From assembly GCA_017533915.1 (NCBI GenBank), contig JAFWHX010000007.1, positions 1 through 38,401 of the forward strand: a DNA stretch of 38,401 nt, given 5' to 3'. The notes below the pieces were generated by a model, which saw only the letters and a program-made list of their open reading frames with translations, made no database searches and was not told where the DNA came from. Position numbers and translations under genes: made by a program. The stretch is from Eubacterium sp. Lineage in GTDB: Bacteria > Bacillota > Clostridia > Peptostreptococcales > Anaerovoracaceae. This document shows, piece after piece, positions 30,586 to 38,401 of the stretch (within the stretch, counting starts at the first letter, position 1; every line of letters starts with the position of its first letter).

Positions 30586-31257
30586 TTATTCTTTTTCTTT
30601 GTCCGGCACATCTTCTGACAGCGCACTGTTAAGCATTTTTCTGTTTTCATCTATAGTCCGTCTGTCGTACAGGTAATGTCCCCAGGTAGTAAGAATGTCT
30701 TCCTGACCAGGGAACAATCTGATATAATCCGTATTGATACCGTCGTCGAGCATCTTGGAAGCCACAGTCTTTCTGATCTTATGATGGCTCTTGTATTCTA
30801 TCCCGGCTTTTCTGCAGTATTTCTCGTTTATCTTTCGCATTGTACCGTATCCCAAAGGCTTGTCCTGGCACGAGAAAATGAAACCGCTTGTCGATGCTCC
30901 GAGCTCATTCTGCTTTTCCGTCGCAAGAGCAATGAGCTTCTTGGCTTCATCTGTCAGCTCCACTTCTCTGTCGCCGAACGCACCCTTGGTATGATCCACA
31001 ACTTCTTTTGTAGTCTGTCTCAGGAATGACGACACTATAATGAATTCTCCGTCTTCCGAAATATCAGAATACCTTAGAGAGCATATCTCGCCTACCCTTA
31101 AGCCTGTCTGGAAGCAGAACAGTATCGCGAGCGGAATAAGCGGCTGCGATGTATGTCTTCCAGTATAGAAGTCATCCCACGCTCTTTTACAGGCACCTGT
31201 ATATAATTCGTAGAGATATTCTTTCAGGGATTCAATCGACGTTTTCCTTGTTTGTAC
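30586..31257 (-). pseudogene. Tyrosine integrase remnant with internal deletion
   Basis: The frame encodes a protein nearly identical to the intact integrase at 34686-35993 but lacks its first about 84 residues and, in frame, about 135 residues (between Trp106 and Trp241 of the intact copy). The join is KRAWDDFY, formed between the similar segments KREWNDD and VAWDDYY. Deleted is the core DNA-binding (SAM-like) domain. The catalytic part stays readable: TGLRVGEI, HHKIRKTVAS and TTWGHYLYDRR. A TGA at 31258-31260 closes the frame upstream; the only internal starts would give a catalytic fragment. It reads toward attachment copy 1. Probably inactive, though a small catalytic fragment could still be made. 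Confidence 0.85.
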
Positions 31258-34685: not shown

Positions 34686-35993
34686 TTACTCCTTTTCCGG
34701 ATCATCTTCTGACAGTGCCTTGTTCAGCATTTTTCTGTTTTCGTCTATAGTCCGTCTGTCGTACAGATAATGTCCCCAGGTAGTCAGAATGTCTTCCTGA
34801 CCAAGGAACAACCTGATATAGTCCGGATTGATTCCGTCATCGAGCATCTTCGAAGCAACAGTCTTTCTGATCTTATGATGACTCTTATAATCTATACCGG
34901 CTTTACGGCAGTACTTCTCATTCATCTTGCGCATCGTACCATACCCAACAGGCCTATCCGTGCAGGAGAAAATGAAACCATTTGTTGAAGCTCCAAGCTC
35001 CTTTTGTTTAGCTGTAGCAAGTGCGATTATTCTCTTGGCTTCATCAGTCAGCTCCACTTCTCTATCGCCGAATGCACCCTTGGTATGATCTACTACTTCT
35101 TTGGTAGTCTGCCTCAAGAATGACGAAACGATAATGAATTCTCCATCTTCTGATATATCAGAGTATCTGAGAGAACATATCTCGCCTACTCTTAAGCCCG
35201 TCTGGAAACAGAATAATATTGCCAGCGGTATAAGAGGCTGCGATGTATGTCTTCCATTATAATAGTCATCCCAGGCTACTTTCTGGAACGCTTCGTCATC
35301 TTCTTTGGAGAATACCTCAGTACTTCCTCTTTTCTTATGCACAGGAACGAATCTTCCCCTATTTATCTTCACACGATTGAACAGGTTCTCTTCGATGATT
35401 CCCTTATCAACAGCATATTCCATCGCCTGTCTGAAGATGACGGTCATGTTGTAATACTTCTTTCTGGTAAGCTTATGCTCGCCTATCATCGTATTCGCCC
35501 AGTCCCTGAGCGTTATAAGGTCAAGATCTGCCAAAGGGGCATCGACTATTGGATCCTTCTCGTAAAACGTATTCCATGTGCATTTGAGTCTGAGAATATA
35601 TGTATCTGCGTCTGTCTCTTTGCTCTTTGATTCAAGCCATTTAGGATACAGCATTCTGAGTGTGACATCATCATTCCACTCTCTTTTGGTAACGCCTGTG
35701 TACAATTCGTAAAGATATTCTCTCAGAGATTCAAGAGAAGACTTGGCAATATGTTTCCTACCATTTTTTCTTTTCGAATCCTTAATAAATGTATTCCATC
35801 TTCCATCTTTACTCTGATAGATCTTATATGGATGTTTTTCACGGAGTATCTGCTCGATCTTTGAGTTTTTCATTTCCTGCTCTACATCATTAAAATTGAT
35901 CTGACCACTTCGGGACAGGAATCCCAATATCTCTTCCGGCGAGTATTCAGTCATTCCAATCGCAGTCATCTTACTACTGGAAACAGTATTCAT
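34686..35993 (-). CDS. Tyrosine recombinase/integrase
   Basis: 435 residues. N-terminal arm-binding part (about 40-95), core-binding domain (about 105-215), catalytic domain (about 230-420) with Arg268 (TGLRVGEI), H373-K-I-R376 and nucleophile Tyr409 (TTWGHYLYDRR). The usual box II His (LGH) is Gln399 here. AAGGA lies 7 nt before the ATG. It integrates circular elements at a tRNA 3' end, here most likely tRNA-Ser. The decayed copy at 30586-31257 is its close relative. It is separated from attachment copy 2 only by the IS. Confidence 0.93.
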   Translation of the reverse strand: MNTVSSSKMTAIGMTEYSPEEILGFLSRSGQINFNDVEQEMKNSKIEQILREKHPYKIYQSKDGRWNTFIKDSKRKNGRKHIAKSSLESLREYLYELYTGVTKREWNDDVTLRMLYPKWLESKSKETDADTYILRLKCTWNTFYEKDPIVDAPLADLDLITLRDWANTMIGEHKLTRKKYYNMTVIFRQAMEYAVDKGIIEENLFNRVKINRGRFVPVHKKRGSTEVFSKEDDEAFQKVAWDDYYNGRHTSQPLIPLAILFCFQTGLRVGEICSLRYSDISEDGEFIIVSSFLRQTTKEVVDHTKGAFGDREVELTDEAKRIIALATAKQKELGASTNGFIFSCTDRPVGYGTMRKMNEKYCRKAGIDYKSHHKIRKTVASKMLDDGINPDYIRLFLGQEDILTTWGHYLYDRRTIDENRKMLNKALSEDDPEKE

Positions 35994-36492: not shown

Positions 36493-36876
36493 TCATTGTC
36501 CCTGGTATGCTTCTTTCTCTGTGTGCTCGTTAATTCTGAGTGCTCTGTGGACTTTTTTCCACGTATTCCACGAAAGTCTTCCTCTATACCAAAGCAGCTG
36601 ATCTTTATCGACTGTAAACTGCTGCTCTGTCACGACCATCGATTGCCTCGGCAGCCCTTCTATCATAGGGAGGAGCACGTGCTCCCGAAGCCAGAGCTTT
36701 TTAAGTCTGCTCGTTATGATAGCTACCGTCACCGTAGGCGACGTTTTGTTTCTGGAATTAGACGACGTAACTACAGCCGGCCTGATACCACTTTGGACGC
36801 TTCCAATCGACACTGGAAATTCCACATAATATATATGGCCCTGCTTCACAAGCTTAGGCCGTTTATGATATTTCAT
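36493..36876 (-). CDS. MazF/PemK-family toxin (endoribonuclease)
   Basis: 127 residues from ATG 36876 with GGAGGAGG upstream; the longer frame to 37062 has no family support. Seen: GHIYYVEFPVSIGSVQSGIRPAVVTSSNSRNKTSPTV, matching the PemK start (GdIy.v.f....GSEq.G.RPavViqn), and VAIITS plus EQQFTVDKDQLL. MazF toxins cut single-stranded mRNA. No antitoxin gene is visible on either side, so it is either an orphan or the antitoxin is too short or diverged to recognise. Confidence 0.85.
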   Translation of the reverse strand: MKYHKRPKLVKQGHIYYVEFPVSIGSVQSGIRPAVVTSSNSRNKTSPTVTVAIITSRLKKLWLREHVLLPMIEGLPRQSMVVTEQQFTVDKDQLLWYRGRLSWNTWKKVHRALRINEHTEKEAYQGQ

Positions 36877-37445
36877 ATATGCCTCCTCCGTTAATTCTGT
36901 ATAAATCCTTTTCTTTCGTATATGGCTTGTCCGTACAGTGGATATATGTACACCCGGTACCTGGAGCAGCATAAAGCCGATCCAGGTCCGGAGGATATAT
37001 TTACATTTATATATCCTCATATGATCCATTTTGTCCCTGGCACCCCGGATCAAAGGAGACATTCAGGCGGCAGCTAGCGACTGCTCCACGGGAATCTGAC
37101 CCCTCTGAGGATCTCTCAGAGCCGCCCTCATTGCGTGATCCCGGTCCTGCTCGGACCAGGGCTGTGACTGGACGGGAGTATCATTGTGGCTCCCCGGATT
37201 TCATTGCACTTACAGTTGCCAAACTGTATTTACAGCCAGATCTTATTCGCTCGCCCATATGGAGGTCATGGCGGATACTGCTGACGATGCTTACGTTCAT
37301 CGCGACTCCGGAAAGGTTGTACCTGATGACTGTATATCCTGTTTTCTTTGTCCTGTAAGAGGTCTTTGATCATGCCTCTCACTAATAGCCACGGGAGAGA
37401 CAAAAATGTGACGTTTTTCAGAAAAAAATAAAAAATTTTTTCAAA
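36877..37445. other. Region without a recognisable gene
   Basis: About 570 bases upstream of the toxin gene. Two hairpins stand out: CTCTGAG-5 nt-CTCAGAG (37103-37121) and an 8-bp stem with one bulge around GGTCC-TGCTC-GGACC (37140-37161). A 35-codon minus-strand frame starts near 37372 but has no support. Composition is more GC-rich than the surrounding element DNA. Confidence 0.4.
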
Positions 37446-37478
37446 GAAAAAAACAACGGCCAGGGATTATCCTGACCG
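37446..37478 (-). terminator. Terminator of the 97-codon gene
   Basis: Stem CGGTCAGG/CCTGGCCG on the minus strand (37471-37478 with 37457-37464, one mismatch), 6-nt loop, then TTGTTTTTTTC. It lies 40 nt after the stop codon. Confidence 0.85.
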
Positions 37479-37518
37479 CTGTCCTATATCTATCGGAGGT
37501 GAGCTTAAATGAGTTTAC

Positions 37519-37812
37519 TTATAATATAGAATCTGCGAGGAATCTATCCATCGCCCTTGCGACGCCAGCCTTTATTACTGCATAAGACATACCAGGTTCG
37601 TACTCGAACAACAGCTCCTGTTCGGCGTAAATGCACGGCACCTTATTCATAAAGATCCTCTGACACTGGTTGATCTCGAAATCAACGTTTACTCTTCTAA
37701 ATGGCACAGATAGATATCTCTCATGCTCATTCTTGAGTTCTTTTATCGCCTTATCGACCATTTCACTTGCTTTATCTGAGCTTGATGCATAATACTTGAG
37801 CCACAACAACAT
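37519..37812 (-). CDS. 97-residue protein of unknown function
   Basis: Not recognised. ATG 37812 has AAGGAGG 8 nt upstream and was chosen over the longer frame (to 38100), which runs through obvious RNA structure. The protein starts MLLWLKYYASSSDKASEMVDKAIKEL (not a clear signal), has charged helices and a YLSVPFRRVNVDFEINQCQRIF stretch suggesting a beta strand, then a C-terminal helix. Two cysteines. No membrane segment is certain. It lies between a long structured leader and a strong terminator, so it is a monocistronic unit under RNA-based control (inferred). Confidence 0.7.
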   Translation of the reverse strand: MLLWLKYYASSSDKASEMVDKAIKELKNEHERYLSVPFRRVNVDFEINQCQRIFMNKVPCIYAEQELLFEYEPGMSYAVIKAGVARAMDRFLADSIL

Positions 37813-37832
37813 TTTAGATTCCTCCTTGTTAC

Positions 37833-37898
37833 TTGCAAAAGCAAAACTGCCTCGTTTGGAACCGACTTGAAAGCTAGAGCCGGTTCCGCCTGAGGCAG
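37833..37898 (-). promoter_or_regulatory. Terminator-like hairpin just before the 97-codon gene
   Basis: On the minus strand CTGCCTC (37892-37898) pairs with GAGGCAG (37847-37853), with an inner GGAACCG/CGGTTCC stem, and is followed by TTTTGCTTTTG. The ribosome binding site starts about 12 nt later. Its 5' arm can instead pair with 38160-38168. Confidence 0.6.
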
Positions 37899-37911
37899 CT
37901 ACTTTATCTTG

Positions 37912-37938
37912 CGGGACTAGCCTGGGTAGAAAGTCCCG
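37912..37938 (-). other. Leader hairpin CGGGACT/AGTCCCG
   Basis: A 7-bp perfect stem with a 13-nt loop in the leader of the 97-codon gene, between the two terminator-like hairpins. Probably part of the folded leader RNA. Confidence 0.6.
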
Positions 37939-37998
37939 TACTGTATAGATATACCCTTCAGACGCATCACCGTAAAAGCCTGAAAAGGTACACCGATC

Positions 37999-38026
37999 AA
38001 AAAGGACTGCCCTTCTGAGGCAGTCC
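37999..38026 (-). terminator. Terminator/attenuator in the leader
   Basis: On the minus strand GGACTGCC/GGCAGTCC (38019-38026 with 38004-38011), 7-nt loop, followed by TTTTT. A strong intrinsic terminator placed 186 nt before the 97-codon start. Its 5' arm includes CTGCCTCAG (38015-38023), complementary to 38160-38168. Confidence 0.8.
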
Positions 38027-38183
38027 AATGATCCAATATAATCCGATCCATATAAAAATAATGGATCGTCGAAAGACTGTTTCCGGTGATCACGCTGCAC
38101 CGCTCTAGCGCATCAATGATTCTCCCACCTTTACATATCTTCCATTTCGGTCCGGCATGCTGCCTCAGAATATGCCGTCCCTT

Positions 38184-38279
38184 GTCTTACTCGTCTCCCG
38201 ACTTATCTCCTGGTATCTGCCGAAGCATCACGGTTGCTGAGATACAGCGTGGCTTCTCACCACATTCCGTTAGCAAGAC
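38184..38279 (-). promoter_or_regulatory. Structured leader, cobalamin-riboswitch-like aptamer
   Basis: A 96-nt stretch closed by GTCTTGCT/AGTAAGAC (38272-38279 with 38184-38191, 8 bp with one G-T). Inside, in order: GGAAT, hairpin GTGG-TGAGAAG-CCAC, GCTGTATC, AGCAACCGTGATG, and AAGTCGGGAGAC before the closing strand. This order resembles the cobalamin aptamer core (GGGAA, GGUGNRAAUCC, GCxG, GCNACUGU, B12 box AGUCRGGAGACC). The GCCACUG element is not seen and the B12 box is imperfect, so another structured RNA class remains possible. It begins about 15 nt after the likely transcription start. Confidence 0.5.
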
Positions 38280-38298
38280 TCAAATATTCTCTTCAATT

Positions 38299-38329
38299 AT
38301 TATATTACCACACGGAATAATAATATCAA
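38299..38329 (-). promoter_or_regulatory. Promoter of the structured leader
   Basis: On the minus strand TTGATA (38324-38329) is followed by TAATAT (38302-38307) at 16 nt; an overlapping TATAAT (38299-38304) sits at 19 nt. Either would start a transcript close to the 5' side of the folded leader. Confidence 0.7.
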
Positions 38330-38401
38330 TAGTATATACTAAAAAGCATGCTTAAGCCGTTTTCGTATTCTCGGCAGCATATGATATATCGCTTGTGGAG
38401 A

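Follow-up and report, generated by a model that had tools for sequence, protein, structure and literature searches.

In the window, by which we mean the whole analysed stretch of 38,401 nucleotides of Eubacterium sp. DNA, the leader of a 97-codon gene (P0001) carries a nine-base loop segment whose complement recurs in two downstream hairpins. This arrangement raises the question of whether one ligand-sensing loop can govern two successive attenuators, and for which gene. The original prediction, a riboswitch-like leader with a shared antiterminator, is confirmed as an observation, and its interpretation appears mostly right, with partial support. The leader is probably a transcription-terminating, cobalamin-type riboswitch of the ligand-off kind, in which the first hairpin (T1) is gated and the loop segment may be handed over to the second (T2).

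Leader architecture and the cobalamin-type fold

The 9-mer and both of its complements lie at exactly the predicted places, and the predicted gene start is confirmed (Table 1). The 96-nt closed fold is likewise recovered, its limits set by P1 as read from the alignment. The proposed promoter is present as a promoter-like site that is weak alone, since the region 36500-38401 holds seven such sites against 3.9 expected from shuffles; GGTAATATAAT is found there and also upstream of a second copy of the leader on contig C17. Among the copies in the window's own genome, this C17 leader is the only one that a DNA search finds similar to the window past the aptamer. Comparison of the two reveals two two-sided and five one-sided changes in the outer helix of the long hairpin between aptamer and T1, with no pair broken. 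No Rfam family matches this hairpin at E up to 10, and a second aptamer is not claimed there. A ROOL, GOLLD or other large RNA was rejected, as no such match appears at E up to 10 across 37400-38401.

Table 1. Features of the leader and its gene in the window
Feature	Position	Strand	Basis
Promoter-like site TTGATA-16-TAATAT, TG ahead of second hexamer	38302..38329	-	Motif scan, weak alone
Divergent cobalamin-type aptamer with P13-L13	38139..38289	-	RF01482 24.2 bits, covariation, refined model R2
Closed core, 96 nt; P1 38279-38272 with 38191-38184	38184..38279	-	Alignment A1, pair counts
Candidate L5 kissing-loop bases UCUCA	38238..38242	-	Fixed-offset pairing with L13, modest support
B12-box-like strand AAGTCGGGAGACGAG	38190..38204	-	12 of 15 positions invariant in 8 own-genome copies
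9-mer CTGAGGCAG in L13, candidate kissing loop or antiterminator strand	38160..38168	-	Sequence, duplex energies
Long hairpin between aptamer and T1, outer helix 10 bp	38071..38143	-	Comparison with C17
Terminator T1, 9 bp, tail TTTTT; 5' arm CTGCCTCAG 38023-38015	38004..38026	-	Terminator scan
Hairpin between T1 and T2	37938-37912	-	Sequence
Second hairpin T2; 5' arm CTGCCTCAG 37898-37890, 3' arm GAGGCAG 37853-37847, tail TTTTGCTTTT	37845..37900	-	Fold, C17 comparison
Ribosome binding site AAGGAGG	37821..37827	-	Sequence
97-codon gene P0001, ATG at 37812	37519..37812	-	ORF
Terminator-like site 3' of gene	37450..37485	-	Terminator scan

The cobalamin-like core anticipated from the letters is borne out by Rfam, family models and covariation as a divergent cobalamin-type riboswitch. 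In the Rfam search, the cobalamin clan supplies the best match, the AdoCbl family RF01482 (E 0.056), but the score stays below the gathering value of 50; the alignment retains many cobalamin-core letters. One strand resembles what we take to be the B12 box. DNA searches revealed six further copies in the same genome and a motif scan one more, making eight with the window, and clan matches below threshold were returned for four of the six other own-genome loci submitted to Rfam. A model of these eight copies yields 30 matches, spread over 9 of the 17 genus genomes. Of the weakest four (38.9 to 20.9 bits), L044 and L045 exceed the RF00174 cut-off, and L029 and L046 lie outside the set submitted to Rfam. 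Rfam was run on 25 of the 30 variant loci, and one, L039, passes the RF00174 gathering score, at 32.5 bits. Rfam cut-offs mostly miss this subfamily, eight copies of which occur in the window's genome.

Model R2, refined from 30 rows, gives the window, itself a training member, 129.1 bits and finds matches in 28 of 197 family genomes (E 0.001). At E 1e-10, under strict filters that miss weak matches, 19 of 297 order genomes are positive, all from the window's own family. Ten of the 13 R2 family loci submitted (R2 E 1.3e-17 to 2.2e-9) pass the RF00174 cut-off, for example L067 (53.5 bits) and L068 (38.1 bits), so the subfamily shades into the cobalamin riboswitches proper. A motif scan detected 13 stretches in a genome-contig collection, the named ones including uncultured Clostridia and Bacillota, and none in a viral-contig collection. 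By these sequence comparisons, the leader belongs to a divergent subfamily of cobalamin-type riboswitches, found in one Clostridia family in the searches run. One genus genome contains, base for base, stretches of 3150 bases from a Hornefia butyriciproducens record, and another contains 3143 and 3189 bases of Eubacterium minutum. The window's genus is therefore that of these two species as the collection draws genera, with Anaerovoracaceae as the family of Hornefia; the open-licence literature returned no paper on Hornefia and riboswitches.

Stem covariance, the absence of which was to count against the proposal, was found in homologues. Across 34 distinct rows of 47 matches, in an alignment that was fitted to the model and hence leans towards the fold, the covariation score is 0.391 against 0.152 in shuffles, with none of 500 shuffles as high. 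Two-sided changes occur in 21 of 25 pairs and 85.0% of cells are paired, falling to 63.7% for P13. A plain eight-row alignment gives the same picture (two-sided changes in 12 of 25 pairs; 0/500 shuffles as high on the covariation score), and the fold is, as judged from these alignments, conserved in its core and in P13. The loop segment holding the 9-mer was correctly placed and is now read as L13 of the cobalamin fold, the names L5 and L13 being assigned after the available text of PMC10653944. Candidate L5-L13 pairing has modest support: it covers five of five positions in the window and, across 29 loci, 125 of 145, where shuffles average 118.3 (62/10000 as high). Counting each of the 10 distinct combinations once gives 34 of 50 paired positions (614/10000 as high).

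L13 and the arms of the two hairpins

L13 pairs with the T2 arm at −22.3 kcal/mol and with the T1 arm at −20.4 kcal/mol, and the next best site in 420 nt of the window reaches −9.2 kcal/mol. In the C17 leader, the two arms give −23.1 and −17.4 kcal/mol. The two complements are not attributable to chance, because none of 300 dinucleotide shuffles matches the best or the second-best window site and none of 300 does so for C17. Relative to the window, C17 leaves the T2 site unchanged, although many flanking bases have drifted, and alters one base of the T1 site, in its loop (CTGCCTCAA). The window and C17 are two paralogues with the same 9-mer, a pair from which L13 covariation with both arms is not demonstrable. 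A third L13-complementary stretch (−17.8 kcal/mol) lies between T2 and the ATG of the C17 leader (L048), 361 nt past the start of the L13 14-mer.

Two T-tailed hairpins had been proposed. T1 stands, with a terminator score of 19.2; the T2 hairpin is also present, but its tail is weak, with scores of 2.9 (window) and −6.8 by the same formula, and the scan that detects T1 misses it. The T2 upper stem comprises 10 bp and shows two two-sided changes against C17, none broken. Complementarity of the switching segment to a terminator arm extends to many relatives: in 16 of the 27 loci that have a T-tailed hairpin, L13 fits its 5' arm beyond shuffled L13 (≤5/100). The other 11 fail, and in L024, L027, L028 and L036 as many as 50 to 88 shuffles per 100 do equally well; in some failing loci, such as L025, the hairpin caller by our own reading chose the wrong hairpin. 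Two L13 sites at ≤ −17 kcal/mol within 420 nt occur only in the window and C17 among 29 leaders. The nearest other leader, L036 (−19.3 and −16.3), has a G+C-rich L13 and fails the shuffle test. By eye, canonical RF00174 riboswitches in L031 and L038 each seem to be trailed by two T-tailed hairpins.

We followed the competition between L13 and the two arms by folding growing transcripts, with energies that omit the kissing loop, proteins and kinetics. Before the T1 3' arm emerges, L13 on the T1 arm is the free MFE in the window (−53.8), and P13 is already favoured in C17 (−66.2 vs −63.1). Once T1 is complete, P13 with T1 beats the L13:T1-arm antiterminator by 2.1 (window) and 11.0 (C17) kcal/mol. 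When the T2 5' arm is out and its 3' arm is not, the free MFE places L13 on the T2 arm with T1 closed (−126.7 window, −137.1 C17), a hand-over state 9.3 (window) and 11.1 (C17) kcal/mol below L13 on the T1 arm. In the complete leader, closure of both T1 and T2 is favoured over this state by 5.5 (window) and 5.3 (C17) kcal/mol, which would make antitermination a kinetic event, confined to ongoing transcription. L13 on the T1 arm with T2 closed is, relative to the hand-over state, 1.1 kcal/mol better in the window and 4.0 worse in C17.

Proposed gating and its alternatives

Ligand binding brings L5 and L13 into kissing contact in published cobalamin riboswitches; in metE of Priestia megaterium, kissing steadies P13 and the terminator forms, and when ligand is absent the P13 3' side pairs with the terminator, as the available text of PMC10653944 describes. 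The window shares with clan CL00101 (RF00174, RF01482), including metE, a core junction, a B12-box-like strand, L5 and L13 placed as a candidate kissing pair, and a putative antiterminator competing with an intrinsic terminator. It differs in scoring below the Rfam cut-offs, in its candidate kissing bases (UCUCA/UGAGG; L5 UCCCG in that text), in having two hairpins that share one L13, and in its thioredoxin-like gene. Whereas the P13 3' side pairs with the terminator in metE, in the window L13 itself would do so; the synthetic platforms in the same text used the reverse complement of L13. Because L13 itself matches the terminator arm, kissing and antitermination would directly exclude each other, and since L13 can pair this arm instead of kissing L5, we infer that ligand should mean OFF.

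With corrinoid bound, L5 and L13 would kiss and L13 would be held, T1 would form with T2 as a second stop, and the thioredoxin-like gene would be off. When ligand is absent, L13 would pair the T1 5' arm during synthesis of T1, and RNA polymerase would pass. As one 9-mer cannot occupy both arms simultaneously, L13 would move onto the T2 arm as that emerges, and T1 would close harmlessly behind the polymerase. This sequential step, in which one kissing loop opens T1 and then T2, driven by T1 re-closure, is a tentative and somewhat doubtful part of the proposal; through it, ligand could halt transcription at two points separated by over 100 nt, and one aptamer could, if this is true, probe for its ligand twice within a single leader.

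The main alternative, which we consider quite possible, is that only T1 is gated and that T2 acts as a constitutive second attenuator or stabilises the mRNA, its L13 complement having no regulatory role. T2 may do little, because its tail is poor, and the scarcity of paired L13 sites (2 of 29 leaders) and the preference of the complete leader for two closed hairpins point the same way. A parallel is the Bc1 c-di-GMP riboswitch of Bacillus thuringiensis, in which two intrinsic terminators lie between one aptamer and the gene and the first terminator is masked by the second, according to the available part of PMC11218506. There the terminators are 28 bp apart, T2 stays folded when T1 opens, and that part of the source mentions no shared antiterminator strand; it describes two terminators within a single expression platform as rarely seen. 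Our search of the open-licence literature for riboswitches with tandem intrinsic terminators found no relevant paper. Against a T2 site of no consequence stand its exact 9-mer match in both leaders, which none of 300 shuffles equals, and its constancy amid drifted flanks.

The subfamily might instead sense something besides the usual cobalamins, such as another corrinoid, a reading that would explain its coexistence with canonical cobalamin riboswitches but that we regard as unlikely. Canonical RF00174 elements lie beside variant copies in L031 (1024-1217, 119.4 bits) and L038 (1117-1297, 124.5 bits), another occurs on C17 (55.7 bits), and transporter genes behind variant copies match no B12 model above cut-off; set against these are the many retained core letters and the gradation of subfamily matches into RF00174. 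Far less probable is a domino in which L13 takes the T1 5' arm and the freed T1 3' arm (GGGCAG) takes the T2 5' arm, opening both hairpins at once: these two arms are complementary in both leaders, but before T2 completes the state is less stable than the hand-over by 13.9 (window) and 18.4 (C17) kcal/mol. That there is no riboswitch at all, the fold having arisen by chance in a long 5' UTR or belonging to a 193-codon gene, is scarcely credible despite the sub-threshold Rfam score and the open frame (38100-37519), given covariation over 34 distinct rows. Translation of that frame throughout, named at the outset as a possible refutation, is unlikely because in the C17 leader four in-frame stops interrupt it before the ATG.

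Genes behind the leader and its relatives

The gene was thought to be of wholly unknown kind, a view that gives way to a profile match. P0001 scores above cut-off with no Pfam or NCBIfam model and alone matches no thioredoxin model. A joint profile (A2) of P0001 and small relatives finds solved thioredoxins at a best E of 1.5e-4, and the Pfam glutaredoxin and thioredoxin models each match two of its seven members. The likeness to the thioredoxin/glutaredoxin fold (PF00085, PF00462; PDB 3gnj) spans positions 6-89 and includes an invariant VP where thioredoxins carry what we take to be the cis-proline. We therefore place P0001, by profile comparison, in the thioredoxin fold, without CXXC. The CXXC/CXXS active site is absent: its place reads DKAS in P0001, GEAC in the paralogue, CPYC in L016 and L017, and DANC or DHKC in the others. 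The paralogue retains the second cysteine and P0001 neither.

This paralogue is 57% identical to P0001 and lies on C17 behind the second copy of the whole leader. Relatives of P0001 occur in 6 of 61 and 9 of 197 genomes searched; the contigs of three in other genus genomes (L014, L015, L017) gave no riboswitch-model match, and tblastn found none in the genome-contig and viral-contig collections. Around the paralogue lie ECF transporter genes, two nitrogenase-like genes and the canonical cobalamin riboswitch. From this gene company, we would guess that P0001 takes part in corrinoid handling or is a binding partner with a redox fold. Adjoining the paralogue, L008 9481-13072 (-) encodes a fusion of NifH with nitrogenase component 1 and a second such protein, for which the best NCBIfam model is CfbC (332.5 bits, below the cut-off of 402).

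Other copies of the subfamily precede secreted-looking proteins and an agr operon, besides the redox-fold protein that lacks active-site cysteines. The C10 copy is followed by Peripla_BP_2/FecCD/ABC genes, whose binding protein reaches 102.1 against the model of a putative F420-0 family (cut-off 392.4) and 52.2 against BtuF (234), both below cut-off, so family-model matches do not fix the transporter substrate. The C4 copies precede three large proteins whose N-termini are hydrophobic (two of 1440 and 1374 aa, one incomplete in the stretch analysed), and on C12 a 710-aa protein with a hydrophobic N-terminus follows one copy and a LytTR/GHKL/AgrB operon also lies behind a copy. At L009 1891-5202, the genes downstream of a variant copy encode a LytTR regulator, a GHKL protein and AgrB; here a switch of the cobalamin type stands ahead of an agr-type operon. 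The window and C17 copies precede thioredoxin-like genes, and the G166 copy a gene that matches CbiQ weakly (20.0 bits, cut-off 25). By a simple hydropathy rule, 19 of 25 called proteins (29 loci, four without an ORF) carry a strongly hydrophobic stretch in their first residues; the six exceptions are the window, C17, L022, L027, L036 and L056, the called start being doubtful in L022 and L036.

Elsewhere in the window, ORF 30586-31035 (-), near tRNA-Ser 30381, resembles by eye the C-terminal part of ORF 34686-35993 (-), which is presumably integrase-like. A pemK RNA (RF02913) at 37086-37187 (-) scores 59.6 bits against a cut-off of 34.8, directly upstream of a PemK/MazF-like gene at 36493-37062 (-) (PF02452, E 3.1e-20).
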